Shown here: piece by piece, positions 3,950 through 62,810 of the stretch
Numbering within the stretch: position 1 is the first letter of the stretch
Layout of the letters: each line of letters starts with the position of its first letter
Source of the DNA: Panorpa germanica
Lineage: Eukaryota > Arthropoda > Insecta > Mecoptera > Panorpidae
Length of the DNA: 64,000 nt
Direction of reading: 5' to 3'
Assembly: GCA_963678705.1 (NCBI GenBank)
Contig: OY783209.1
Location: 15,190,001-15,254,000, forward strand
Position numbers and translations under genes: made by a program
The notes under the pieces: model-generated
What the model saw: only the letters and a program-made list of their open reading frames with translations
Database searches by the model: none
Told to the model about the DNA's origin: nothing

Positions 3950-6369
3950 CTTTTATTTCACGCTCCTTACTTCTCTCATTACTTCTTATCTCTGATATCT
4001 CCTTGCATTATTATAGCTGTTTGTGTCTGTCGTGACAATTTTCTTATATTATTAAATCTACTACAATAAATATTCGGCCAGTACTCGGCAACAATACGAC
4101 TCAGAATTAAAAATAAACCGACTTTAAATACTTTAAAATGAAAATGAGAAGTAAGAAACTTCTTAACAAAATTAATATCTTATTTATCTTATATAAACTT
4201 CTTCTTTAAACATTTAACATCTTCTTTATACATAATCTAAATATACTATTTAGTTATACTAAAACAAATCTCCTTTACTTTTAACTGTACTAGTAATTTT
4301 TTTTCTTTCTAAACAGATTACGTACAATTTTATTATAAAAGTATTGCAATATACATAAAAATGTAGTGTAGAAAATACAATTGCTGAGAGCATTAGTGAT
4401 TTAGGCTGCTTTTATTGGGTTAATAGTTCACTTTCACTTTAATACGACCAAAAAATATAAATTACTGTATCCGGTTTGAAAATTTTTCAGAGGTGGTAAC
4501 TCTAATCGCGGCCATTCCGTGCTATGATACAAAGAGGCGGTTGCAACAAGTGGCATTGTAATGAAGTTTCTTAAACAGAAAAATTTAAATATTAAAATTG
4601 AGTCATACAATAATTAAATATCTGTATGCTCCGCTTTTCTGTATTGGTCAATCTGTCAATCTTTAAAAATTCAATAAACTCAACAAAACATAGAAATCTG
4701 TTATTAATTTTTACTGAATTTACATTGGCAGACACTTTAGACTACACATCCTTAATTAACGAATTTGCTAAATTTAATCTTAAAGGCGTAGAACAGCAGT
4801 AGATTGTTATAGTTGATATCACTAATTTAAAGTAGTTTGAATATTCAAAATGAAAATAGTGCATACTATGTTGTATACATAATATTTAAATATTAGCTGT
4901 TAGTAGCGTTAAATATTATGTTGTTTTTCTTTAAATATCAATAAAATGTTTCATTAATAAAAAAAAAACTTTTAATGGGCGGTGCTTTAAATACCTGCAG
5001 CATGGCACTGCATATAAGGGACTATTTACTAAATAAACTCATTAATACATTACCATACGACACTTTAAATCTGCCGAGAAAGATAACAGGTAGTCAGTGA
5101 TAGAACTTATATCTCAAATAAACCGCCGGTAAGTGCAAAATACACAAATATTACTGTAAAAATAATAAAATACATAACATAAACAAAAAAATCAAGTTTT
5201 TCTTTATGATGTGTCTTATCATCAAATTAGAAAAATTACAATAATCGGTGAATATGACCCACTAGAAACACATTAAATACAAGAGAAAAAACAAGTTTTA
5301 TGTAAAATTTTGCTTCATTTACAGATAAATGTTATATAAAAGTTACATAGTTAAAATAAATGAATCCTACTAACTTAGTAAAGTTGTTTATATTTTATAT
5401 ATTAGCACATTAAAAATAATTTAAATGAAGAAGAGCATTTATGTCTTCAAATCCTAACCCACAACCTTGGTTGTTATCAAAATCAAATTGATTATGTGCT
5501 CACAATACTAGGCACTCTATATCATTCACAATATTGGTGTTATTACTAATCAGATTACGTCACCTGAAATATTGCCAATAAAAGAGAGAGTGTCGAAAGT
5601 GGGCCGTCGTTAAATAAAATGGTAATAAAAAAACCAATTTAAATAAAATCAATCCAAGATAAAATCAACGTTTTTGAGTCGGATTCTGCACTTTCTGATA
5701 TAAATGTGCAATTTAATATATTAAAAGAGTGTAACGAGGAGATAATTTTTAGATGTAGAGCTGCTTTCTATCTGTGCATCTTAATTTGTAAATGTATTTT
5801 TCTTTGTGGCAGCTGTTCTAACAGATGTTCCATATTCAATAAACTCAAGGCCGCTTAATCAATTAGCTATTCTTTATCCTCTCTTTAAATTTATGCATCA
5901 AATATTAACATACTTTTCTAGAACCATTTTTTTTTTAACTAACTGGGTCAATTTATAATCTAGCAACACTGGTTATTGTTTTACGAGTAGTGGATCCAGT
6001 GACCCACTTCTTTCTACTTTAAATTATCAAAGCAAATACAAACAAATTAGGACTAGTTAAAACTATTACTAGTTTATATTGTTACAGTGTTTAAAATTCA
6101 TACACAGGAGCAGGTCTAACACATTACCTTAATTTTAGTGACCCACTAATAAAGTTTCAAATAAATGATGAAACAATGTTAATGCACTATTATTATAATG
6201 TTCGCATAATTATCATAAATAAAGGCGAGTTAATGTTTTTCAAATTTTGATATTTTATACAGGAAGGGTTTCTAAGACTTTCTTCTTCTTTTTATCTGTT
6301 AACACTTTATTTAAATGCCTTTTCAATGGATCCATTTCTTACATTTACAAATGCAACGCAATTATAATA
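3950..6369. other. AT-rich stretch; scrap of Helitron-family sequence near 6225-6300
   Basis: No gene is recognised. At about 6230-6300 a short segment (TTTTTCAAATTTTGATATTTT and onward) matches the part of the Helitron-like family seen again near 13470, so an older fragment lies immediately left of the complete copy. The phrase AGTGACCCACT occurs twice near 5997 and 6139 without further structure. Confidence 0.5.
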
Positions 6370-8566
6370 TCCTATATTATAATGTTTCAGGTATATTTGA
6401 CTTGTTTATCTACCTATTATACTGTTCGTAATTTTTACTATTTATATGAAAAAAGGGCGCCTACAAAGTTTTTTAAATTTAGATATTTTGTAGAGGAGAA
6501 ATTTCTCTGGAAGAAGTAAATGTGGAAAAACTAATAATTTTCAAAAAATACTTTTGCAAATATCTCAGAAACTGGAAAAGATAGAAAACTGAAATTTGGC
6601 GTGTATATTAAGATCATAATTGTGCACATTTACCAATAATTTTAAATTCAATATTTAAGTTCAGTAGCGGCGTGAATTTCGGAGGGTAATGTTAGAATAG
6701 AGTAACTTTGTATATAGGCTCCACTGTAAACGGTAATTACTGAAAAAAAATAAAAACCACGAATTTCCAGTGGCGGAAATTGGGACGATAAAAGCCAGAA
6801 ATATTAAATTAAATAAATTTAAAATAAATAAATTGGGGTATGCATTGAGACACTAATTGTGCATATTTGCTAATAAATGGAACACTAAAATTTTTATTCA
6901 GTAGCAGCGCGAAACCGCTTCGAAAACTACAAATTTCCATTAGCGACGGGAGCCGGGGTGCCAAAGTCCAGAAGTGTCAAATAAATATAGATGAACGGCT
7001 ATAATTTAGAAAATATGTTCTTAGATACAAACAAAATAGATCACAGTGCTGAGATTTGAAAAATTAGTTCCGTAGTGAATGTATGTGGGTGGCACTAATG
7101 ATAAAATATAAATACAAAGCTGAAATTTGGAATGTAGATATAGAGATTGGCATATTAATAACGAAAATATAAAAAGAACTACATTTTCATAAGTGTAACA
7201 TTTAGGCAGGGGTGATAAACCGAATATAAGAACGATATAGAGGTACAACGATAATATTTTGCATGTAGAATATTAAGTTGAAGCAAAATAGTTCTCCATA
7301 AGTTTGATATTTAAATTACATTCAGTAGTATAATTGGATTGATATTTGGTGCAATTGTTGTACTGTGAAATCGAACAGGAGTAAGGGGGTAGGGGGAAAA
7401 TAGTCAATAGCCCCAAATATCAAATTAAAACTAGGTATTTGCATATTTGCGAAACTAAATTTAACGTTAATAGCAAATTTGAGGAAGTTCGGGCGGGGAA
7501 GGTTTTGCAAAAGAGCTCAATTTTGAAATTTATTATGTCTCTCTAAACGATCGTGTATAAAAGGTAGAGAGAATATTTACGAGCAAAATAGATTGATCTT
7601 ACTAAAATTTGGCAATTTAACTTCATGAGCGGGGATAAATGGGGAGACTAATATTATATCGTAAATATAAATATGAAAATTAGAACGTAAGTTTACAGTG
7701 TAGTTATAGTTATGTCTCTGGGAGGTAACCGTGCTGCAGAATATGTGCTTTGATGCTGAAGTGTAGGCGGCAGTGCAGGAGGATTAAATCGAAAGTGCAA
7801 GAATGGAATCGATAAGGGCTGGAGATGAGATAATTATAAGCTAGGTGCTAGGCTTTCTTAAAAACATAAATGAATTGATGTAATTAGTAGGTTTACATTG
7901 AAATGAGTGAAAATAAATTTTAACCTGCATTTATCTTGTCGCATAATTATTAAGAAATAATGTACTTCTAAGGATGAAATTTCGTATATAGGTTGTCAGT
8001 AAAGTATTAATTTTGAAAATTATTTGTTAAGAGATTAGTACACAGGGCGTGGAAGCGCAGGATTGTTTAATGATAGCGCTAAAGCGGGGGCGCTGGGAAA
8101 GTGCTCTAATGAGCACGTTCTATTTAGCAAATAACTTTTATTTAATCACAGATATTATATTTCACTAATTTTGTATGGTATAACTGTTTATTCGTAAAAG
8201 ATAGAAATGTGAAATTTTGCTTGTGCATTTCGCTATTAAATGCAAACATTTTCAAAATTTCTACATTTATAATTACGGCGCCGAGAAAATTAGGGGGCCC
8301 GCTAGAAAGTTATAACTTTGTAAGTGGGCCAACTTTGGTACCTAATTTTGAAAAAAAGTTAGTTAAATAACGAATAAATTTAAAATAATTCATATTTTGT
8401 TGAAAAAATATATTTTTTTAGTCAGTTATTATGAAAAATTATTTGTTGTTATATGTAAAATTAGAACGAGATAAATATATCAATTTAAAAATGGAATTAA
8501 AATTTAAAATTAAATTTAAATTATACATAAAAGACAGTCGTCACTTGCGACGGGGATAAACCCTAG
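6370..8566 (+). mobile_element. Helitron-like element, copy A, both ends present (2,197 bp)
   Basis: The copy begins TCCTATATTATAATG directly after an A and ends with a short hairpin (GTCG...CGAC), about 11 bases and then CTAG, followed by T. This is the A-to-T insertion with 5' TC, 3' hairpin and CTRR end that defines Helitrons. No target duplication is seen. Two further copies in this window (43835-44647 and 58488-60530, both minus) share the start, and the 43.8-kb copy also shares the end. I see no Rep/helicase coding, so it is a non-autonomous derivative. Its interior holds several diverged blocks with phrases such as CAGTAGCGGCG recurring every few hundred bases. Confidence 0.75.
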
Positions 8567-19819: not shown

Positions 19820-21888
<2,069 letters not shown>

Positions 21889-28370: not shown

Positions 28371-28865
28371 AGTTCCAATCAATATTCATGTATTTTATGA
28401 TGATTTGTATACTTTTTGACAAGTAGAAGCAATATTAAATTCCCGTCCATTATGTCCTCTGACCCCAACGACTTAACTGCTATCATTCGTGGACACTTAA
28501 CATTCGGTCGCCTCATTACTAGTATCACACCAGTAACGCAACATCCAGTTAATTTAAATAAATTGCAACGCTTCTCTCATAAACAAGATTGTATTCAATA
28601 CTACTGGAAAAGATGGTCATCTATTTAAATTAATCAGTGCCAGCAAAGAACTATAGGAAACTACTTGTTTAGACATTAGAATAGGGTCTGCTAATAAAAG
28701 TCCTAATATCAAATCGTTCTAATAAAAGAAGACAACATGCCACTAACGCAATGGGCATTAAGACGAGTAAATAAATTATTTCCAGGCACAGATTCTCAAG
28801 CCCGAGTAGCAGTATTAAAATCGCAATATGGCGAAACTACTAGAGCCGTAAGAAAAATTGCCTTA
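28371..28865 (+). mobile_element. BEL/Pao fossil B, integrase C-terminal part
   Basis: Plus-strand segments SSDPNDLTAIIRGHLTFGR and QDCIQYYWKRWS (28450-28620), then PLTQWALRRVNKLFPGTDS (28737 onward), are the distal part of a BEL/Pao integrase. It is interrupted at 28865 by the DUF4806-carrying element. Confidence 0.85.
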
Positions 28866-28879
28866 CCCATACAGGATCA

Positions 28880-29095
28880 AACCATCGGCCCAGTCTTGGT
28901 ACAGGCCTGGTTCAGTACTGTAAAGATCTGGGCCAAGTATGCACACCAGTCTTGGCCCAGCTTTGGGAATAGCCTGGAATGATAACATCGTGCCAGGATT
29001 GGTTGTCAAGATTGGGCCAAGCTAGATCGTCAAGGCTAGGCCAAGCTTGATCACCAATACTGGGCCAGATTTGTATACCAGTTTTGGATTAAAAA
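28880..29095. repeat. Left subterminal cluster of GGCCCA/TGGGCCAAG motifs
   Basis: Units such as CTGGGCCAAGTATGCACACC, TTGGGCCAAGCTAGATCG and TACTGGGCCAGATTTGTATACC recur at roughly 25-40 bp, containing the near-palindrome TTGGGCCAA in both orientations. Comparable units occur at the other end of the same element. Confidence 0.75.
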
Positions 29096-29284
29096 AATTT
29101 AATAAAAGCTTAAGCTAATTATAATTAGCGCATGCTTTAAGACACAAATAATTACATCCATATACTTAAATTAAATTTATTTAATTATTTAAATTATGAG
29201 ATAACATTCATATGACATTAACTTTCAATACATACTAAGATTTATATTTTAGTCGACATCTTTGTTTATAATAATATACCCAAC

Positions 29285-29640
29285 ATCACAAATATCATTA
29301 TTAATTGTACTGATAAGAACATAAAAACTAACAAGATCAAAATATATTTTTAAAGTAATGCTTATTTATTATAATAGATGTGATTAGTAATATTTAATTA
29401 ATAAATATTACTGTATCTAATAAAAAAACAGGTACACTGATGCTTTTCAATTAGCACTTTGTTATAGATATATATCACAAATATTAATACTGATCGTACT
29501 GATAAGAACTTAAAAACTAACAAGATCAAAATATATTTTTTAACGTTATGCATAGTTAGAATAATAGATGTAATTATTAATATTTAATTAATAAATATTA
29601 TTATATCTAATAACAAGGCCGGTACACTGAGATTTACTTC
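29285..29640. repeat. Tandem duplication, two units, period 189 bp
   Basis: ATCACAAATAT begins units at 29285 and 29474. Both continue through CTGATAAGAAC, AAAACTAACAAGATCAAAAT and ATTTAATTAATAAATATTA, and end with GGTACACTGA. Divergence is visible but modest. Confidence 0.85.
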
Positions 29641-29663
29641 TCAATCAACGCTTTTTTCCCATA

Positions 29664-30661
29664 CTATAAGGTAAAAGGCCCAGTTTCTGATAGTATATCA
29701 TTTTGTAGGACATCTTTTCCTCGCTGTGCTCGTCCACCGTTCCTGTCGCCTGCACCAGATAAAAATTTACTGACGATAGTCAATATTTTTATTTTATCCT
29801 TTGCATCATGATATTTTGCCTGGATAAATTCTGAAAAAAATGAAATCGCAATCAGTAAATCACAATTACTTTTCAACTCGAATATTGCAACTTACCTTTT
29901 ATCAGTTTGTACGACTCAGTTTGATTGAAAGCTTTCTTACCAACTCCTTTCATTATTCTTCCACATACACTGTACTCTAATTGCACATTTTTTTTCAGCA
30001 GCTTTGTCATTATCGCTGAAATATCATCTTCATATTTCGTGTGTCCAGCAGCTACCATCTTGAATATCTCTTTCTACAAATATACGTGTATAATTAATTA
30101 ACAAGTTATCAATAATCAATAACTAATGATGAATAGTAAACGTAATGCGTACCACGGTATCTTGTGTGTCTTCTTTTGTATTAAGATCCTCTTCAAACTT
30201 GAGAAAACCTTCAATACTGTCAAACGGTAAATCTTTACCTATTTCTTTCAAAGCTTGAGTTTTCTCTGGTAATTCCGCTTTGTATTCTACAGCTCGCAAA
30301 ATCTTGTCGTACCTGTTCGATACCGTTAATAAAAGGCTTCGTTTCATTTTATCACATTCTCTTACCACGCATTTTTCAAGGAATTTTGCGAGACCATCAT
30401 AGTCGGTTATCCCTAGAAATTGTACGATAACTATAATAGTTTTTCATTGCTATCACTGGAATCAAAATATTTATTATTACACACTGATGAACCACCTGGT
30501 TCTGGAATGTTATTAGAAACATTGTTTTTATTCACATCACTATTAATAGTTTAATCACTAACATTTGGTTGAGTAATGTTTGAGTTGGTTAGTTTATTTG
30601 AAACTTTGCTTGTTTTGTGTAACGCGTGTCACTTTTTCAATCGAAAATACGAGTCAGACAT
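29664..30661 (-). pseudogene. DUF4806-domain protein gene, spliced, stops in the upstream segment
   Basis: Three minus-strand exons join in phase: 30412-30153, 30073-29896 and 29830-29664 (introns of 79 and 65 nt, GT-AG). The product runs GITDYDGLAKFLEKC, then LPFDSIEGFLKFEEDL, KEIFKMVAAGHTKYEDDIS, LKKNVQLEYSVCGRIMKG and GKKAFNQTESYKLI, and ends ETGPFTL. The pattern of an FDSIEGFLKFEEDL helix, then Y...GR...GKKAF, matches the DUF4806 family, whose biochemical role is unknown to me. An upstream segment starting MSDSYFRLKK at 30661 may be the first exon (donor near 30496), but it has two in-frame stops, so the copy is probably dead or that exon is wrong. It is the only gene of the 3.3-kb element. 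Confidence 0.6.
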
Positions 30662-30774
30662 AGTTATAATATTAATAATAAAACATTTAAATCATACGTA
30701 ATATATTAAATGACTAATATTAAATGTACAATAACAAATAAATAGAGAACATTTGACTGCTTCCACATAGACAC

Positions 30775-30860
30775 TTGTATATAATATATATAATATATTA
30801 ATTATTAAATAATATATATAATATATTAATTATATTAATTATTTTATAATATTTAATATT
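30775..30860. repeat. AT-only imperfect tandem repeat
   Basis: TAATATATATAATATATTAATTAT-type units follow each other upstream of the DUF4806-type gene (minus strand), within its likely promoter region. Confidence 0.5.
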
Positions 30861-31354
30861 ATTTTGTTAATGCTAAGATGCTTAAGCGCGTGTTGACTGC
30901 TTGACGATTCAATTAATAATGTCTGTTTTAAGTCCGAACGTAATGTCGGCATAGCAGATGGTCATAACACAAAAGGCAGTTAGCCTTGAACCAGGCTTGC
31001 GGATGAGCTACAAAGCAAACCGCCTATGTGTGTCACAGATGTCTGTAGTCGTGTATTAGGGGGTGTATTGGAGTTCTTTAGCACTTATATAATTTATCAT
31101 GAGAGCACACTTTAACTTTAACTTTAATTTTTATCGATACACTACTGGTATTAAAGGGACTTTAGCATTTATTATATATCTGAGTTCTGGTGGGCGTGAA
31201 TTTAAATTTAGTTCTATCGTATTGGTATCGGTATCGGTGTCCATGATTCACTGAAATACAAACATAAACTGCATGCAGAACATAGTGATGTCGCCGATAG
31301 ATTTCATTTGAAGCGTATTGCAGCGTAACAACAAGCGATCTTAGGTATCCCCCC

Positions 31355-31635
31355 AGTCTGAGGCTGCTGTTTGCATTTACAAAGGTTCGGATAGGATATC
31401 GTTGTAGTAGTGGTAACGCTTGGATAAAATTCGCCTTTATACGGTTCTAATGTGCGAGGTAGTGCCGCCCGTATTCGGACGGCTTTGTAGCGTGCAGTCT
31501 GAGAGCTCCAGAGAGATCTCATTACATTTACATGGATCGGATAGGTAAAGCGTAGTAGCCCGTACACGTCCGGCAGAAATTCGCTTAAATACGGTGCCAT
31601 ACTGAGACAGGCCTAAGATATAACTATTGCATGCG
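31355..31635. repeat. Diverged tandem duplication, two units, period 140 bp
   Basis: CAGTCTGAG begins units at 31355 and 31495. Each continues through CATTTACA, GGATAGG, a GTAGTAG phrase, AAATTCGC and ATACGGT. This G/C-richer block differs from its AT-rich surroundings. Overlapping minus-strand open frames across it look incidental. Confidence 0.65.
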
Positions 31636-31844
31636 TTTATGAACACCCTCTGTTGGTATAAATTCCTAGTTTAATGACTTCCTCTATTGGCGTTAATTCA
31701 AATATTATCAATGCTATGAAGCATTTGTTTACAACAAGATTATGAAATATTAATAAAAATTATTTTTAGAACAATTTTTTATTTATTGTGAGTAAATTTC
31801 TGTTTATGAATGAGCTTAATTACATAGTGTTAAGTTTCCTAGTG

Positions 31845-32180
31845 TTGGCCCAAAGTTGGGTGAATTAAGAGATGACCAAGACTCGATTTCCCAGTATTGG
31901 GCCAAGTCTAAATCACCAAAAAATGGCTCAGGCTTGGTTGACCGAATCTGGTTCAAAGCTGGGTCACCGTAGTATGGCCAGAGCTGAGATTTTCAGTGTT
32001 GGCCCAAAGTTGGGTGAGTTAAGAAATGGCCAAGACTTGATTTCCCAGTCGTGGCCCAAGATAGGGTGAACATAGGATTGGCCAAGCCTCAATTATCCAA
32101 ATTTAGACCAATCTTGGCGCGCCGAAGTCTGGTTTCCCGTGACTGGGCCACGCTTGGCCCCGTTGTCGAACTACGGGGAC
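31845..32180. repeat. Right subterminal cluster of GGCCCA/TGGGCCAAG motifs
   Basis: GTGTTGGCCCAAAGTTGGGT occurs at about 31852 and again at about 31997, and CAGTATTGGGCCAAG, ATGGCCAAGACTTG and GTGGCCCAAGATAGGG fill the space between and after. Spacing is irregular, at about 30-40 bp. The motif is the same as in the left cluster. Confidence 0.75.
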
Positions 32181-32191
32181 TCCTGTATGGG

Positions 32192-32432
32192 TACTACCCT
32201 TGGACAATCTTGATGTACCCGTCGATACATCAATGGAGGGAGTATGTTCAAGAAACAATTTAAATATTTAGCTTTTTTTCATTAAATATTTATAAATTTC
32301 TTTTGTTTTTAAATTATTGTATTATCATAGTCACCAATAGTCACCTTACCATTTTTATGTTCATCACATCGCCAGAATCATTTGCTTTATTTATTCATTT
32401 TTAATAAATACAATAGTAAGTTCGTTCTCACA
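32192..32432 (+). mobile_element. BEL/Pao fossil B, last internal bases and probable 3' LTR
   Basis: BEL/Pao sequence resumes at 32192. A purine tract (GGAGGGAG) ends just before TGTTCAAG at 32245, the expected start of the 3' LTR. AATAAATA near 32403 could be its polyadenylation signal and CACA at 32429-32432 a possible end, but no partner LTR is in the window, so the right boundary is tentative. Confidence 0.55.
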
Positions 32433-42493: not shown

Positions 42494-42706
42494 ATATAGC
42501 AAATCCTCACAGTCGAGTTGTAACGCTTGAAGTGAACGGTTCGAATAGTTTTTGATAATAATTAATAGCAGCTGTATTATTATAATTTAAACATCAATAG
42601 TATTTTTTGTTGTTTTTTATTTTATTTTTTGTTTAACTTTTTTAAATTTTATTTTAGTGAAGTGAAAATATTTTTTTTTTTTGTTAGTTACTGGTTACAA
42701 ATAAAT

Positions 42707-44987
42707 ATGGACGGGGCAAGGGGCCCCATTAAAGACTTATAATCTACTTGTAGATAGATTAAATAATACAACAAGTGATAATGATACTAGTGTTTCATAT
42801 TTAGCCAGTAATACAACTAAAACATTCGTAACAAATCTTTACAACACAGAAAATACCAATTCAGTTTACAAGGTCATAATTACCAAAAAAGTAAACAATG
42901 ACGTAAAGTATAATTTCAGTTGTCTAAAACTAGGACAATTAATATGTAAGATAAGTGATAAAAAAGACATTATAGATATAAAAAAAGTTGGGAAAAACAA
43001 GGTTATAGTTCAATGTGCCACAGCTAGTTTAGCTAATAAATTTGTTACCGATTCAACGCTAAAGAAGCAGGAATATGAAGCTTATATACCATATTTTTGG
43101 ACAACTAAAGCCGCAATCATTAAAGGTGTGGATTTGGATGTTTTGGAAGAAGATTTACTTAACAATATAGAGTGTGCACCGTTTAAGGTGAAAAGAGTGC
43201 AACGTTTAAATAGGAAAACCACAGAGGACAATAATATTAAATATGTTCCTTGTACAACAATAAAAGTGTTCTTTGACGGTTTGACGCTGCCTGAATACGT
43301 GTACATTTGGAGAGTAAGGAAAACGTGTGAACCGTATATCCTCCCCTCTATTCAATGTCATAACTGTTTAAGATATGGTCATTCTTCTAAATTCTGTAGA
43401 TCGAAATTCACAATCTGCAAATTTTGTGGAAACAATGATCATAAAAATAATGAATGTAAAGCGGAATCACATTATTGCTTTAATTGTAAGGGTGCGCATC
43501 AAGCTATGGACATTAATTGCCCGGAAAGAGAAAAACAAAGAAAAATTAAGGAAGTAATGGCTCAGCACAATCTCAGTTTTCAGGAAGCAAGGCTGGAAAT
43601 AGACGGAAATGGAAATAAGGACTACCTATACTCCGTAAGAACTGAAAATAGATTCGATTTATTTAATAATTTTAATAATAACTTCCCTACAATTGAAATA
43701 GACAACAATACTAAATACAACATTCCAGCATACAAACCGAAACCATTAACAAGGAGAAACAATAAAAAAACAACAACGATTCATAATAACAAACCACCAA
43801 CTCACATTCAAACTGATAAACATTATAATACAAACTAGAGTTTGCCCCCGTCGCAATGCGACGTCTTTTTGGCGTGTATCATTTAAATCCAATAAAATAA
43901 TTCGTAATTAAATTTCATATTTAACTGTTCTATTTTTAAATTGAAATAATAAATAAACTCGCGCACATATACATACATATAAATTGACTAAAAAAATATT
44001 ATTTTTTTTTTTCAAAATAAAAAATATTTTCAATTTATGCGTTATTTGACCAACTTTTTTTCAAAATTAGGGATTTTTTTTTTCGATTCGTAAATAAGTT
44101 ACCAAGGTTAGCCTATATACAAAATTTCAACTTTCTAGCACAATTTTTACTCTCGGCAAATACTGCCCCCCGTGCAGCCAAACAAAATTTTGAAATTTTG
44201 AATTTTTTTTTATTAATAATATACTTAATTATTCTAGAATCCAGAATATGAACTTTCTCCAAAGTTCCCTACCGGGCCCCCGAATTTCTTCAACCCCCCC
44301 TTTTTCAATTTTTGAATTTCTAATTTTTGAGAAATGTCAGCATTGAATACCTTAATACACATGCAAAATTTCAACTTTCTATCTTTTACGAATTAAAAGT
44401 AATACAGCAAAAAAGGGTTCACTTTTTTTCCAGTTTTTCCAAAATTACGGGTTTCCAGGAAATTCAGGGAAAAATACGAGGACGCCAAAAGTCTTAGAAT
44501 TTTTTTCTCTACGAAATAGGAAATTTTTAAAAACTTCCCTGGAGCCGTTTTCGAGATGCCATACAAAATTTGAACCAAACATATAAACATATAAGAATAT
44601 AAGATCATAAGAATATAAATATACACCTGGGACATTATAATATAGGATAAAGACAGAGATTCCGTATCAGCAGTAACGAAGAAAAGAAGAATGGATCTAA
44701 TTACTAATACCTCATCAGATAATGTAGAACTTTTGAACGAAACGTTAAAAAAAGTTAACTCTTTAATTGAAAGATCGAGTTGCTCCAATGATACTAACAC
44801 AAATAAGACAAATCAACTTATAGAAAATAAATCACAATACTGTTCGTCTTCTGCAACAAACAGAGAAACCCTACATGAATTAGATAATTACACAAGTAAA
44901 ACTAAAGAGAGATATAATTTAAGAAGCAATAGCCAAAACAAAACCGATAAGATTCTGAAGAATTCTGATAAGATAGATAATGTATAA
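42707..44987 (+). pseudogene. LINE ORF1 (Gag-like, three zinc knuckles), interrupted by a Helitron-like insertion
   Basis: Two blocks, 42707-43834 and 44648-44987, join in phase across the insertion to make about 488 codons. The ATG at 42707 is in a different frame from the rest; a one-base gain within the first ten codons (MDGARGP... against ...LKTYNLLVDRLNN) explains it. The knuckles CHNCLRYGHSSKFC, CKFCGNNDHKNNEC and CFNCKGAHQAMDINC lie in a row (43350-43520), followed by a basic Asn/Lys-rich tail. The protein would coat LINE RNA. The stop codon (44985-44987) overlaps the ORF2 ATG at 44980, as in I-type elements where ORF2 is translated after ORF1. Confidence 0.88.
43835..44647 (-). mobile_element. 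Helitron-like element, copy C, 813 bp, inside LINE ORF1
   Basis: On the minus strand it begins TCCTATATTATAATG after an A and ends with a hairpin (GTCGCA.TGCGAC), GGGGGCAAACT and CTAG, followed by T. Both ends match copy A (6370-8566). No target bases are duplicated, and removing it rejoins ORF1 of the LINE in frame, which fixes its limits to the base. It encodes nothing recognisable. Confidence 0.85.
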
Positions 44988-47900
44988 TATTATTCAATGG
45001 AATTGTAGAGGAGTCAGACATATTAAAGAAGAACTTCAATTTATGTTACGGAAACATAATATACATATATGCATTTTATCAGAAACATTTTTAACAAATG
45101 CTTGCAATTTTAACATGAAAGGATATTTTATTGAAAGAAAAGATAGAATGCAGCAAACAAACTACAATCCTCATGGGGGGGTCGCTATTTTAATTCATAA
45201 ATCAATAAAATATAAACGAATAATGTTAAACAATCCATTTAATTCAGTCGAAATAACAGCTATCACTATAACAGCTAACAAAAATGAAGAAATATGTATT
45301 TTATCCATCTATGCCAAACCTAACCATAATCTATCAAATCTAAATTGGTCTCATATAAAACAACAAATAAATGTACCTGTCATACTAGCCGGAGATTTCA
45401 ACGCCACTCACCTTGCTTGGGATATATATTGTCCAGGGAGTTTCTATGAAGGTAACGAACTCCTAGAATTTATAGAAAACGAAAATCTACATATTCTCAA
45501 TGATGATAATCCAACTAGGGTTAGCAGTCCAAACTATAGAAATAGCATATTAGATCTCACTATAGTATCTCCAAGATTAACTCAACAAATTACTTCATGG
45601 CAGGTACTAAAAGATAGTATGGGTAGTGATCATTTTCCAATATATTTTTGTTTAGAAGACAATACTAACAGACAAACTTCTGAACATATTACTAGAAGAA
45701 ACTTCCGAAAAGCCGATTGGGTGGGATATAGAATAGATATAGAAGAAAAAATTACAAATATAAATTTAACTGAAGGGTCCGAAAATAACGAGATAGAAGA
45801 AACATACTCACAATTTACAGAGATTATAAATAATTCCGCTAATGAAAACATACCAAATACCACAGTTTACAACATAACCCCCAGAAAAATAAAACCGAAT
45901 TGGTGGGATACAGAATGTAATAAATTTATTGCCCAAAGACAATTAGCATTAACAACCTTCAACAGAAATATGACAATAGATAATTACTTAATGTATAAAA
46001 AACAACAAGCAAAAACCAGACGCTATTTTAGGGCTCGAAAAAAAATTGAATGGCAGAAATTTTGTGAAACGTTAAATCCATACATGTCAACAAACACTAT
46101 ATGGGAAAATATAAGGAAAGTTAATAATAAAAATTATAGTAAAAAGAAAATAAGTGATGACGAAAATTGGATAGATGAATTTATTGCTAATAAATTCCCA
46201 CAAAACCACCTAAATATCACAATCCCAAACACTTCAACCATAAAAAATCAATTCCTTGATAAATCTATCAAAATTAATGAAGTAAATTTCGCTTTAAACC
46301 ATAATAAAAATAGCAGCACAGGACATGACAGAATAAACTATAAAATGATACAAAATCTTCCACTGAACGCAAAAATTTATCTTACCCAAATTTACAACCT
46401 CTCACTAAATTCTGCAAACATACCTGAAGATTGGAAGAAACATATAGTGGTACCGATCCTAAAACCCACCAAGGACCCAAATTACGAAGAATCATACAGA
46501 CCTATAACATTATTATCATGCCTTGGAAAAACGATGGAAGCAATAATAAAAAACAGATTGGAATGGTTTATAGAACATAATAAAAAATTACCTGACCTAC
46601 AATTTGCTTTCAGAAAAGCAATGAGTACTCAACACAATCTTAACATTCTGAACATGGATATACAAAAAACTTATAGCAGAAATCATTTCATGATTGCTGC
46701 TTTTATTGACATCGAAGCAGCATATGACAACGTAAATCTCCTTATATTGAAAGAAAAGATGGAAAGTTTAGGAATTTCATCGAAAACAACAAACTGGATT
46801 ATAAATTACTTTCAACACCGAAAAATAACCATCAGATACAACAACAAGTTAACGGGTCCTATAAATTTCAATCACGGTATTCCACAAGGTTCAATCATTG
46901 CCCCTTTATTGTTTAATATATATACTAAAGATTTAACATCAATATCAGATAACAATACAAAAGTACTTATGTATGCTGATGATATAGTAATTTATAGTGG
47001 AGGTCATACTCTAGAAATAGCTCAAAAGAGACTCCAAATCAAACTAAATAAACTGGTCAGTATGTTATCAGATATCAAATTGAATATATCTTTAGAAAAA
47101 AGTAAATTAGCCATATTTACAAGACATAGAATAATCTGTAGCCCAAAAATAAACATTAGAAACAAGATCATTATTGTAAGTGCTAACATAAAATTTTTGG
47201 GTGTATTCTTCGATACAAAAAGTACATGGTCAAAACAAATTGATTTCATTATTACCAAAATGCACAAAGGACTAAGTCTAATGCGATGTCTGGCCGGGTA
47301 CAAATGGGGTGCACATCCTTTAACTTTAATAAATATATATAAAGCTATAATAAGACCACATATAGATTATTCTAGTACCTTGATCTGTACCGCTAATAAT
47401 ATGAGGAAGAAAAAGATTGAAATAATTCAAAATAAATGTTTAAGAATAATTTTAGGAGTAATGCAATCAACTCCATCACAAATTCTAAATTTTGAAACTA
47501 ATATAACTCCTGTCAACATAAGGATACAACAAATTGCAGACAATTTTTACTGCAAAAACATTCTAAACTCATTTGAACCAATATCCTCAAGAATCGAAGT
47601 ACTTCGTGAATTATACGATAATCCCTATTGGTTAATGAAAAATAAACCTGCACTTCTAGAAAGCTATGACAGATACAACAACTTAAACATAGAATCATAC
47701 AAAGTCATACCTTATTTTAAATTTACATTAGAGACAAGCATATTCAAAATAAATACAGAAACAAGCTACTTCGAAAAGAATGACAACAACTTAATTACAC
47801 AAAAGAGGTATATGGAGTATATTGGGAAAGATGGAATAAATTGGGATTTATGGTTCACTGACGGTTCCTTGCAAAAAGATACTAATTCTGGGGGAATAGG

Positions 47901-48702
47901 AATATATAACCAAAGTAATAATCTACAATACAAATATAAAGTAAATAATGTTAAAAGTTCATATTCCGTAGAATTAATAGCGATCATGAAACTAATAGAA
48001 ATACTGCAAACTAAAGATAGTATAAATATATTAATAATCACAGACTCTAATAGTGTATGTCAATCTTTAAACAACAACATTTTTAAAAATAATAACAACT
48101 ACAAGATTTGTTCAATTAAAAAATATCTTTTAAAATCAAAGAATAGAGGTATAAATATTAAAATCCTATGGATCCCCGGTCACTCTGGTATAAAAGGAAA
48201 TGAAATTGCTGACAAACTAGCTAAGGAAGCTTGCCTTAATGGGGAATTCCTTGATATCAAATGGAATTATAAAGATGTCAAAATAATTGTCAATGAAAGA
48301 AGTAATATAGACTGGCAGGTTAACTACAAGCAAAGAAGTGTAACTACAGGTAAACAATTTTTTTCTAATAACCCAAAAATACTAAAGACATTATGGTTCA
48401 CAAAAGATCACCCCCGAAGATTCATAACAACTATGACGCGAATCAAAACAGGCCATTGCAGAGTTCCATTTCATTTACACAAAATAAATTTATTGAGAAC
48501 CCCAAATTGTATATGTGACGAGGAGGGAACATTAGATCATGTTATTTTAGGATGCAGACTATTAAAAAAAGAAATTGACGATTTGATGTACAACTTAGCT
48601 GAGGAGGCTTTTTTTCCCGCAAACATATCCTACCTGATTAGTATAGAAGAATGCTCAAAGAAAATCTATAATTTCATAATAGCTAATAAAATTGAAATAT
48701 AA
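44980..48702 (+). CDS. LINE ORF2: endonuclease, reverse transcriptase, RNase H, 1240 aa, intact
   Basis: An uninterrupted frame. The AP-type endonuclease spans residues about 1-225 (IIQWNCRG, SETFL, AGDFNATHLAWD, SDHFPIYF). The reverse transcriptase spans about 440-720 (SYRPITLLSCLGK, AAFIDIEAAYDNVN, HGIPQGSIIAPLLFNIY, YADD at 665-668). RNase H starts at WFTDGS (Asp961), with VELIAIMK, ITDSNSV and WIPGHSGIKGNEIADKLAKE (from Trp1064). A terminal zinc motif CICDEEGTLDHVILGC starts at Cys1177. The protein nicks target DNA and copies the LINE RNA there. All catalytic residues are visible. The EN-RT-RNase H order places it in the I superclade (I, Nimb or LOA-like); Jockey elements lack RNase H. 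It could act on other copies even though its own ORF1 is broken. Confidence 0.95.
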   Translation: MYNIIQWNCRGVRHIKEELQFMLRKHNIHICILSETFLTNACNFNMKGYFIERKDRMQQTNYNPHGGVAILIHKSIKYKRIMLNNPFNSVEITAITITANKNEEICILSIYAKPNHNLSNLNWSHIKQQINVPVILAGDFNATHLAWDIYCPGSFYEGNELLEFIENENLHILNDDNPTRVSSPNYRNSILDLTIVSPRLTQQITSWQVLKDSMGSDHFPIYFCLEDNTNRQTSEHITRRNFRKADWVGYRIDIEEKITNINLTEGSENNEIEETYSQFTEIINNSANENIPNTTVYNITPRKIKPNWWDTECNKFIAQRQLALTTFNRNMTIDNYLMYKKQQAKTRRYFRARKKIEWQKFCETLNPYMSTNTIWENIRKVNNKNYSKKKISDDENWIDEFIANKFPQNHLNITIPNTSTIKNQFLDKSIKINEVNFALNHNKNSSTGHDRINYKMIQNLPLNAKIYLTQIYNLSLNSANIPEDWKKHIVVPILKPTKDPNYEESYRPITLLSCLGKTMEAIIKNRLEWFIEHNKKLPDLQFAFRKAMSTQHNLNILNMDIQKTYSRNHFMIAAFIDIEAAYDNVNLLILKEKMESLGISSKTTNWIINYFQHRKITIRYNNKLTGPINFNHGIPQGSIIAPLLFNIYTKDLTSISDNNTKVLMYADDIVIYSGGHTLEIAQKRLQIKLNKLVSMLSDIKLNISLEKSKLAIFTRHRIICSPKINIRNKIIIVSANIKFLGVFFDTKSTWSKQIDFIITKMHKGLSLMRCLAGYKWGAHPLTLINIYKAIIRPHIDYSSTLICTANNMRKKKIEIIQNKCLRIILGVMQSTPSQILNFETNITPVNIRIQQIADNFYCKNILNSFEPISSRIEVLRELYDNPYWLMKNKPALLESYDRYNNLNIESYKVIPYFKFTLETSIFKINTETSYFEKNDNNLITQKRYMEYIGKDGINWDLWFTDGSLQKDTNSGGIGIYNQSNNLQYKYKVNNVKSSYSVELIAIMKLIEILQTKDSINILIITDSNSVCQSLNNNIFKNNNNYKICSIKKYLLKSKNRGINIKILWIPGHSGIKGNEIADKLAKEACLNGEFLDIKWNYKDVKIIVNERSNIDWQVNYKQRSVTTGKQFFSNNPKILKTLWFTKDHPRRFITTMTRIKTGHCRVPFHLHKINLLRTPNCICDEEGTLDHVILGCRLLKKEIDDLMYNLAEEAFFPANISYLISIEECSKKIYNFIIANKIEI

Positions 48703-60530: not shown

Positions 60531-61809
60531 TTATATATAAAAATATAAAAATAGGGGCTTATAAAACTGTTGCATATCAGAAAACGCTTCTCTTCTCTAC
60601 TGGACAGGTACTTAATGAATTACCCAACAATATACTTATAATTATATATAAAAATATAAAAATAGGGGCGTATAAAACTGTTGCATATCAGAAAACGCTT
60701 CTCTTCTCTACTGGACAGGTACTTAATGAATTACTCAACAATATACTTATAATTATATATAAAAATAGGGGCTTATAAAACTGTTGCATATCAGAAAACG
60801 CTTCTCTTCTCTACTGGACAGGTACTTAATGAATTACCCAACAATATACTTATAATTGTATATAAAAATATAAAAATAGGGGCTTATAAAACTGTTGCAT
60901 ATCAGAAAACGCTTCTCTTCTCTACTGGACAGGTACTTAATGAATTACCCAACAATATACTTATAATTGTATATAAAAATATAAAAATAGGGGCTTATAA
61001 AACTGTTGCATATCAGAAAACGCTTCTCTTCTCTACTGGACAGGTACCTAATGAAATACCCAACAATATACTTATAATTATATATAAAAATATAAAAATA
61101 GGGGCTTATAAAACTGTTGCATATCAGAAAACGCTTCTCTTCTCTACTGGACAGGTACTTAATGAATTACCCAACAATATACTTATAATTGTATATAAAA
61201 ATATAAAAATAGGGGCTTATAAAACTGTTGCATATCAGAAAACGCTTCTCTTCTCTACTGGACAGGTACTTAATGAATTACCCAACAATATACTTATAAT
61301 TATATATAAAAATATAAAAATAGGGGCTTATAAAACTGTTGCATATCAGAAAACGCTTCTCTTCTCTACTGGGCAGGTACTTAATGAATTACCCAACAAT
61401 ATACTTATTATTATATATAAAAATAGGGGCTTATAAAACTGTTGCATATCAGAAAACGATTCTCTTCTCTACTGGACAGGTACTTAATGAATTACTCAAC
61501 AATATACTTATAATTATATATAAAAATATAAAAATAGGGGCTTATAAAACTGTTGCATATCAGAAAACGCTTCTCTTTTCTACTGGACAGGTACTTAATG
61601 AATTACCCAACAATATACTTATAATTATATATAAAAATATAAAAATAGGGGCTTATAAAACTGTTGCATATCAGAAAACGCTTCTCTTCTCTACTGGACA
61701 GGTACTTAATGAATTACCCAACAATATACTTATAATTATATATAAAAATATAAAAATAGGGGCTTATAAAACTGTTGCATATCAGAAAACGCTTCTCTTC
61801 GACTATAAT
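60531..61809 (+). repeat. Tandem array, twelve units of 111 bp (two of 103 bp), derived from a Jockey LINE
   Basis: ATAGGGGC(T/G)TATAAAACTG recurs at 60551, 60662, 60765, 60876, 60987, 61098, 61209, 61320, 61423, 61534, 61645 and 61756. Spacing is 111 bp except for two 103-bp units that lack eight AT bases. Units are almost identical. Each holds about 75 bp matching Jockey ORF2 (compare 50650-50735: STGQVLNELPN and GAYKTVAYQKTLLFS) plus about 35 bp of AT-rich linker. Because 111 is 37 codons, long repetitive open frames run through it by arithmetic; they are not genes. Confidence 0.95.
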
Positions 61810-62810
61810 ACATCTTCAGGCAATAAAAAGTGGCTGAAGTAATTATGATACTAAAACCGGGCAAAGATCCAAATACCAAAAAAAACATAATGGCTTATAA
61901 TATTACTGCCAATAATATCCAAGAGCCTGTAGCCTATAATAAAAGAGAGAGACCTATTCACTTAACTATCGACCAGGTGCACAGAACATTTGACATAATC
62001 AAAGATACCTTAGAAAGAAAGAAAATATGTCAAGTGTCTTCCTTAATGTGTCTCAAGCGTTTAATAAAGTATGGATAGAGGAACTGTAATTTAAATTTCA
62101 ACGATCCTCGATCTCCCGAAACAATTCTATGAAATACTAAAATCTTATCTGCAGACAGGCTTTTAGGCATTTCATGTTAAGTGTGGCAATGAATAATCAC
62201 AACATCTGTGCAGGAGTACCGCAAGGTAGTGTGCTTTGCACAACACTGTACTTGCTCTACACAGAGATATACTACAAGATGAGGAATCAACAATGGCCAC
62301 CTTTGCAGATGATACTGCTATCTTGGCCGTTGGGAACACTATCAATGAAGCCGCAATAAAACTTCAAAAAGCAGTGGACAAGGGCAGTACTTGAACAAAA
62401 GTATGGCGAATTAAACAAAATTAGTTTATATCAATACACGTAAATTTCACATACTGAAAGAATACTAAAAATCTGCATATACTCATAAACGCAAACAGAA
62501 TTCCTCATGAAAATGAAGCTAAATATAAGGTTTTGTTAAGGTGGAAAGCGCATATCAAAGAGAAAAAGCAAGATCTGAACTTAAAATACAGGAAAACGTA
62601 TTGATTAATTGGACGACGCTCTAAACTAAACAATGGAAACAAGCTGCTTATATATAAGCAATTTCTAAAGTATAGACGTCTGGAGTGCAACTCTGGGATT
62701 GCTTATTTCAATTTACCTCAGGGATGATCTCATTTTACGAGGGACGCATGCAAATTGGCTAAAAATTAGTTAGTTATGGTGGACAGGCCCTTCATATTTA
62801 CATGAATAGT
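61810..62810 (+). mobile_element. Jockey-clade LINE ORF2 remnant downstream of the array
   Basis: Continues in the same sense as the array: VAEVIMILKPGKDPN (61832), YNKRERPIHLTIDQVHRTFD (61937), SLMCLKRLIKYG-type motif A region, GVPQGSVL (62212), FADDTA-like sequence (62307) and scattered C-terminal sequence to about 62800. Closely related to the copy at 50270-51670. Many shifts and stops. Confidence 0.8.

Follow-up and report, generated by a model that had tools for sequence, protein, structure and literature searches.

A complete, transposase-less copy of a CACTA-like transposon in Panorpa germanica, carrying a truncated second gene

Introduction

A mobile element that carries one gene, without a recognisable transposase beside it, raises the question of what the gene is doing there. 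Such an element lies in a 64,000-nucleotide stretch of the Panorpa germanica genome (assembly GCA_963678705.1, contig OY783209.1, positions 15,190,001 to 15,254,000), here called the window, and an initial annotation assigned its gene a DUF4806-type domain. That annotation offered two readings: either the gene is cargo of a non-autonomous element, or DUF4806 proteins are part of an unrecognised transposition system. Neither accounts fully for the element, as relatives have a CACTA-like transposase upstream of the gene. The window element is complete but has no transposase; it is a copy of a CACTA-like transposon that was active recently, and its gene is the element's own second gene (gene 2), truncated and with a new in-phase exon in front.

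The element and its insertion site

The features that delimit the element, in window coordinates, are as follows.

28866..32191, unstranded: whole element of 3,326 bp, a non-autonomous family-1 copy (ends, TA duplication, empty site, relatives)
28864..28865, unstranded: left target duplication, TA (sequence)
32192..32193, unstranded: right target duplication, TA (sequence)
28866..28876, plus strand: left terminal inverted repeat, CCCATACAGGA (104 genome occurrences)
32181..32191, minus strand: right terminal inverted repeat, reverse complement of CCCATACAGGA (sequence)
28887..29072, unstranded: left subterminal cluster of GGCC-centred repeats with the core TTGGCC (motif count)
31813..32191, unstranded: right subterminal region of GGCC-centred repeats, a block common to the transposase-bearing relatives (motif count, alignment)
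31008..31614, unstranded: segment absent from 2.9-kb copies (parts recur in relatives L041, at 5259-5666, and L042 of family 2, at 6149-6484)

To the left, the flanking sequence encodes part of a retroelement polyprotein (Pfam DUF5641, E 6.7e-12), a domain that belongs to BEL/Pao elements, and the target is a retroelement of that type. When the flanks are joined and one TA is removed, the resulting empty site finds a match at all 40 scored places (from 115 candidates), spanning positions 1-131 of the 134-position query at 91-92% identity, and the boundaries of the element are therefore exact. The complete 3.3-kb element with perfect 11-bp ends and the BEL/Pao-type surroundings that were first described thus stand. 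The segment at 31008..31614 is probably a separate repeat, since parts of it recur in the two relatives.

Counts of the 11-mer CCCATACAGGA across the 464-Mb genome are 49 + 55, compared with 18 + 13 (31) for a reversed-pattern control, and the best 100 of these 104 end places yield 17 further convergent pairs, 2.7-5.2 kb apart, so that the anticipated further loci with the same ends do exist. Long aligned blocks between the window element and related copies are about 94-99% identical. Throughout, genome searches score the best candidates only, and locus counts are lower bounds.

Target duplications were tabulated for 18 copies, using the outermost ends and tolerating one mismatch per end. Nine of the 18 have a 2-bp duplication, which is TA in four, AT in three, CA in one and AA in one. 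Five copies without one (L020, L021, L023-L025) share identical flanking bases and so probably represent a single event; the flanks of L011 and L012 are also nearly identical. By the same rule no 2-bp repeat is present at L009, L013, L014 or L015. Because other copies have AT, CA or AA, the TA reported earlier holds as the duplication of the window copy, but not as a rule for the family. The same table bears on membership of a TA-specific superfamily (Tc1/mariner-like or similar) in place of CACTA: the TA of the window copy would suit it, but the duplications AT, CA and AA in family 1, which rule such superfamilies out, together with TG in family 2 and the CACTA-like character of the associated transposase, leave it with next to no probability.

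The window element has 11 sites of the motif GGCCCA/TGGGCC, where 200 shuffles give a mean of 0.56 and a maximum of 3, and 10 of the 11 sites are within about 350 bp of an element end, bearing out the clusters noted inside both ends. As had been suggested from the letters of the sequence, this is a complete non-autonomous cut-and-paste element, with subterminal repeats of the kind to which a transposase would bind.

Family-1 relatives and their transposase

A genome-wide protein search with exons C-E of the window gene (below) places the gene, by its exon C, at no fewer than 33 family-1 loci. With ends taken from the best 100 of the 104 end places, both exact ends are within 6 kb at 18 of these loci, one end at 13, and neither at two. 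Just inside the right end, six longer copies (L013, L014, L017, L022, L026 and L028) have a transposase C-terminal ORF, complete or fragmented, that measures at most 164 aa, and such C-terminal sequence is present in at least 11 family-1 loci. At eight of the 11 the gene follows downstream on the same strand; six of these have it 1.8-3.5 kb away, and the other two 6.3 and 14.8 kb away. There is no downstream gene at the remaining three (C16:1544534, C2:4536915 and C16:384389). Relatives carrying a transposase, which the first reading of the element had proposed to look for, are thus present, and this arrangement on one strand argues that the element belongs to a known kind of system and that the gene is not captured cargo.

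The C-terminal ORF has relatives at C2:17305543 and elsewhere that are long, CACTA-like transposase-type frames. The spacing between the two catalytic-type aspartates is 79, 79 and 78 residues in L041, L040 and L043, respectively, with a CxxC after the second; L041 (C16:863273-864815) alone belongs to family 1. Its transposase has an internal stop, and an array of TPR repeats takes the place of the missing 5' part; no other long family-1 transposase came to light, and the searches found no intact autonomous copy. Further downstream, and on the same strand, L041 has an open frame whose translation starts MSDNIEKP, another open frame, and then exons C-E and a duplicated left end; the two open frames look like 5' exons of a longer gene 2. 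The 561-aa ORF of L040 is 32-33% identical to the C-terminal ORF and matches Pfam DUF4218 at E 0.0023, below the cut-off. Transposase_21 (PF02992) gave no hmmscan match in the transposase ORFs, and none in a genome profile search whose controls also lacked a match. An AlphaFold2 model from a 15-row transposase alignment has a pLDDT of 37.7, too low for a fold to be read from it.

Gene 2 does not accompany every such transposase. Ten other transposase loci (four of the L040 type, six of the L043 type) have no gene-2 match within 30 kb among the matches listed, and gene 2 is therefore not universal; either a single branch has it, or elsewhere it is too diverged to see. At three of the ten (L049, L050 and L051) no gene-2 ORF was recognised among the frames of at least 70 codons in the roughly 5-6 kb that follow downstream. 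Many shorter transposase matches occur elsewhere, mainly on C3.

Two further families with the same gene

Searching with exons C-E also reveals, in many places, a distant relative with about 26% identity, which defines family 2; across matching exons the two families share 26-38% identity. The ends of family 2 are CCCATAC, and its gene order is that of family 1. Its copy L048 extends from CCCATACAAA at 582 to TTCGTATGGG finishing at 4927, with a TG duplication and a tandemly repeated right end, and has on the minus strand an N-terminal frame (3517-3257), a domain frame (2102-1611) and then a last exon that, by reading, ends AGDREGKK. The N-terminal frames of the two families give no significant alignment (E 0.15), so that homology between their second genes rests on exons C-E. 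An identical 164-aa exon at 13 family-2 loci indicates recent spread.

Both ends are within 12 kb of the family-2 gene at 21 of 25 loci and one end at the other four; together with the 18 of 33 family-1 loci above (ends from the best 100 of 104 places), this shows that the gene is for the most part enclosed by an inverted-end structure, so that neither of the outcomes named at first as refuting the observation is seen. Upstream on the same strand, a remnant of the transposase 3' part is present at 24 of the 25 (the exception is on C135), mostly of 42-43 codons with 74-83% identity to L042, where it reaches 167 codons. Another nine pairs of family-2 ends enclose nothing that matches a gene-2 exon, and eight of them have a transposase remnant.

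Family 3 is represented by L052 (on C1), with 11-bp ends CCAGGTAGGAA at 1304 and 2627 that start CCA, where families 1 and 2 start CCC, and with no clear target duplication. It has homologues of gene-2 exons D and E, 42% identical to family 2 over 57 residues, with exon E interrupted by a stop (by reading). Subterminal repeats again lie mostly close to both ends: 17 TTGGCC and 21 GGCCGA in L048, and seven TGGCCC and eight AGCTTGG in L052. A second gene-2 alignment omits the exon C rows, which had been misplaced.

These families bear on the proposal that there is an unrecognised system whose transposase is the DUF4806-type protein itself. The greater number of family-1 loci with exon C (33) than with a transposase C-terminus (11, among the matches listed) and the recent spread of family 2 with an intact exon would be expected of it; however, the remnants upstream of 24 of 25 family-2 genes, the transposase upstream of gene 2 at eight of 11 family-1 transposase loci, and ends and duplications of the TRC CACTA type make it very improbable. 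A system consisting of DUF4806 proteins only is ruled out by those remnants.

The gene in the window copy

Four segments, all on the minus strand, make up the gene.

30496..30661, minus strand: first exon, 55 codons including its ATG, with a GT donor at its end (phase fits that of exons C-E)
30153..30412, minus strand: gene-2 exon C (GT-AG splice, phase)
29896..30073, minus strand: gene-2 exon D, where the domain is best conserved among the three families (alignment)
29664..29830, minus strand: gene-2 last exon E, ending in the stop codon (the family-2 domain exon has a similar last exon after it)

Exons C, D and E have predicted GT-AG introns, are in phase and are open through to the stop codon. 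The three in-phase exons of the original description are therefore sound, with the qualification that a further predicted exon with an ATG is present upstream, and it contains two in-frame stops in the window copy. The sequence shared with L041 stops 34 bp upstream of exon C, and beyond this point the small copies have, in place of L041-type sequence, the ATG exon (30661-30496 in the window) with its in-phase donor. At the 29 loci with this exon its open frames are 68-97 codons long, so that no longer transposase frame follows it.

Among 26 copies the first exon is open, with ATG and donor, in 15, and several have none or only part of it; exons C-E are open in 13, one of which (L022) lacks the start of exon C, and broken or incomplete in the other 13. 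The frame is open from ATG to stop in six (255-256 aa in those listed). Pairwise pN/pS is 1.56 for exons C-E (26 copies) and 0.83 for the first exon (21 copies), so no purifying selection is visible among the copies. Divergence among the copies is 1.9 and 2.5% in the two introns and 2.6-3.0% in the exons. The copies thus drift, with no visible maintenance of the gene. The gene of the window copy is a damaged remnant.

Such drift, and the broken or incomplete exons C-E in half of the copies, would also be expected if the gene were a captured host gene carried as a passenger. That reading appears quite unlikely, however, as homologues occupy the same place and orientation in two families as far diverged as 26-38% identity, both adjoining transposase sequence, and two genome-wide protein searches gave loci of families 1-3 only, among the matches listed. 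A genome search with the DUF4806 profile (PF16064) gave nothing at E<=0.001, its controls being likewise without a match.

The re-fused protein could also act as a repressor of its parent transposon, in the manner of KP, the repressor derivative of the Drosophila P element. Consistent with such a role, the fusion retains the conserved C-terminal domain, six of the 26 copies remain open throughout, and the new first exon is at 29 loci compared with 33 for exon C; but pN/pS near or above 1 and the two first-exon stops in the window copy itself argue against it, and we regard it as unlikely.

Comparison with known systems

One of the closest known systems is En/Spm of maize, which encodes a transposase and a second protein, has clusters of subterminal repeats, and gives rise to internal-deletion copies (dSpm) that are moved in trans. 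It differs from the elements described here in having CACTA rather than CCC ends and a target duplication of 3 bp rather than 2 bp. The elements of families 1 and 2 agree with the animal TRC elements (SmTRC1 of Schistosoma mansoni, and relatives in Tribolium and Aedes), for which PMC1636069, in the passages that treat them, gives CCC ends, two aspartates about 80 residues apart and a CxxC, with 2-bp duplications in seven of 14 SmTRC1 copies. These passages, which also recount the En/Spm transcripts, describe a transcript on which two ORFs lie in tandem; the product of the second is also encoded by other transcripts, probably those of truncated copies. The likeness thus extends to a second protein downstream of the transposase and to truncated copies that keep the second gene (PMC1636069). 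Outside the transposase domain, the same passages report no detectable conservation, whereas the domain of the second protein here recurs in three families of one genome and is weakly DUF4806-like. Families 1 and 2 are set apart from TRC by their common CCCATAC ends and GGCC-centred subterminal repeats. Spongebob (EnSpm-4N1_HM), of Hydra and insects, likewise has CCC ends and 2-bp duplications, but its TIR, CCCAGCCAACATTGAC, differs, and no second gene is described in the part of PMC4298943 that concerns it.

The DUF4806 label

The window gene matches DUF4806 weakly, at 13.7, 13.8 and 14.8 bits compared with a curated cut-off of 25 bits, over nearly the full profile length (positions 7-83 of 90); the E-values, from lowest to highest, are 0.036, 0.076 and 0.08. 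Four other full-length copies have no DUF4806 match at E<=1, and the proteins of families 2 and 3 have none. The DUF4806-type domain of the initial annotation therefore survives as a weak match that falls short of the cut-off, and from sequence comparison the proper label is DUF4806-like, unproven. An 11-row alignment of the family-2 exon gave an AlphaFold2 model with a mean pLDDT of 47.3, of which an N-terminal helix is the only confident part, too little for a BEN-like fold to be read from it; the same alignment found nothing below E 0.24 among solved structures and no relative in the viral contigs scanned. One protein had no match in NCBIfam.

A table of enriched domains in PMC7642931, many of whose entries are transposase-related, includes 69 and 54 DUF4806 domains in two Hydra species; DUF4806 is named together with DUF5641 as enriched in a beetle in PMC13270666; and a DUF4806 gene is named in PMC11445403, with nothing more said at that point. 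Around the mentions of DUF4806 in the open-access literature searched there is no link to CACTA, and the passages of PMC5704228 in which BEN domain and CACTA both appear do not connect them.

Origin of the window copy and its wider meaning

In relatives of the same family, transposase sequence near the right end is followed, in the same orientation, by gene 2. Both ends of the window copy and their GGCC repeats are retained, as are the last three gene-2 exons; the transposase and the 5' part of gene 2 are missing. We consider it probable, with good confidence, that the element arose by internal deletion from an animal CACTA-like (TRC-type) DNA transposon and that gene 2 is the transposon's own second gene. 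The first exon would then be the former first exon of the transposase, joined on by the deletion, and a transposase supplied from elsewhere would have cut and pasted the window copy by way of its 11-bp ends, leaving the 2-bp duplication. By analogy with maize, we lean slightly towards the gene-2 protein being the counterpart of TNPA, a DNA-binding partner that would bring the GGCC repeats at the two ends together so that the transposase can act. Wider, and distinctly more tentative, is the speculation that animal DUF4806-type (BEN-like) proteins are largely such DNA-binding second proteins of CACTA-like transposons, again as counterparts of TNPA.

The second protein of the published schistosome element was without detectable relatives; here the second gene recurs in three families of one genome. 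In two of these it adjoins transposase sequence, and many copies that have lost the transposase still carry it. If the wider speculation holds, expansions such as the 69 and 54 domains tabulated for Hydra (PMC7642931) would mark CACTA activity, and deletion copies would spread DNA-binding domains through genomes, sometimes re-fused to new exons. Should gene 2 be DUF4806- or BEN-like, this would give an orphan animal domain an origin, along with a role in binding transposon ends that can be tested, and the counts of DUF4806 genes in animal genomes would in part be counts of transposons.

Other features of the window

Three further features were recognised in the window:

20257-21885, GMC oxidoreductase-like ORF of 543 aa (PF00732, E 5.8e-42)
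42705-48699, LINE-like element
60753-61839, repeats that translate without interruption into a repetitive peptide (KIGAYKTVAYQKTLLFSTGQVLNELPNNILIIIYKN)

The LINE-like element contains a 1241-aa ORF that matches endonuclease, reverse transcriptase and RNase H. Ahead of this ORF lies another, of 377 aa, which has no clear match.

Organization of the CACTA-like copies

One terminal segment, 175 bp long in family 1 (the CACTA-like family of the window element) and 113 bp in its relative, family 2, is tandemly duplicated in many copies (loci L010, L011, L013, L014, L015, L019, L022, L041 and L048), such that two successive inverted repeats occupy one end. On contig C208 (31119-44088; loci L023-L025) three family-1 copies follow one another at a spacing of about 4.5 kb; their ten flanking bases are identical, and are also found at the copies on contigs C95 (L020) and C141 (L021). 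At L041, which carries gene 2 and a broken transposase, a TPR-repeat frame extends to the border of the transposase copy:

L041 3-2177, 42-aa TPR repeats, almost identical to one another, in a frame of 725 codons

Polymerase B-like sequences

On contig C1, family-1 ends enclose a palindrome with 99.67% identity over 5,716 bp, within which there are DNA polymerase B and Endonuclease_7 matches; it was apparently inserted into the gene-2 region:

L028 3286-9001 and L039 6446-742 (C1:9044735-9061529), near-perfect palindrome, 12 kb

The Pfam scan behind the polymerase B label covered the L028 frames, and other ORFs are so labelled from the appearance of their sequence:

L036 7200-9998, polymerase-B-like ORF
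L035 1861-4941, polymerase-B-like ORF
L050 1-1689, polymerase-B-like ORF

ORFs of this appearance adjoin family-1 copies on C98 and C95, and a transposase of a further group (L043-type) on C5. The family-1 ends on C98 are 28.8 kb apart. Polymerase-B-like elements are possibly associated with CACTA-like ones on a recurrent basis.
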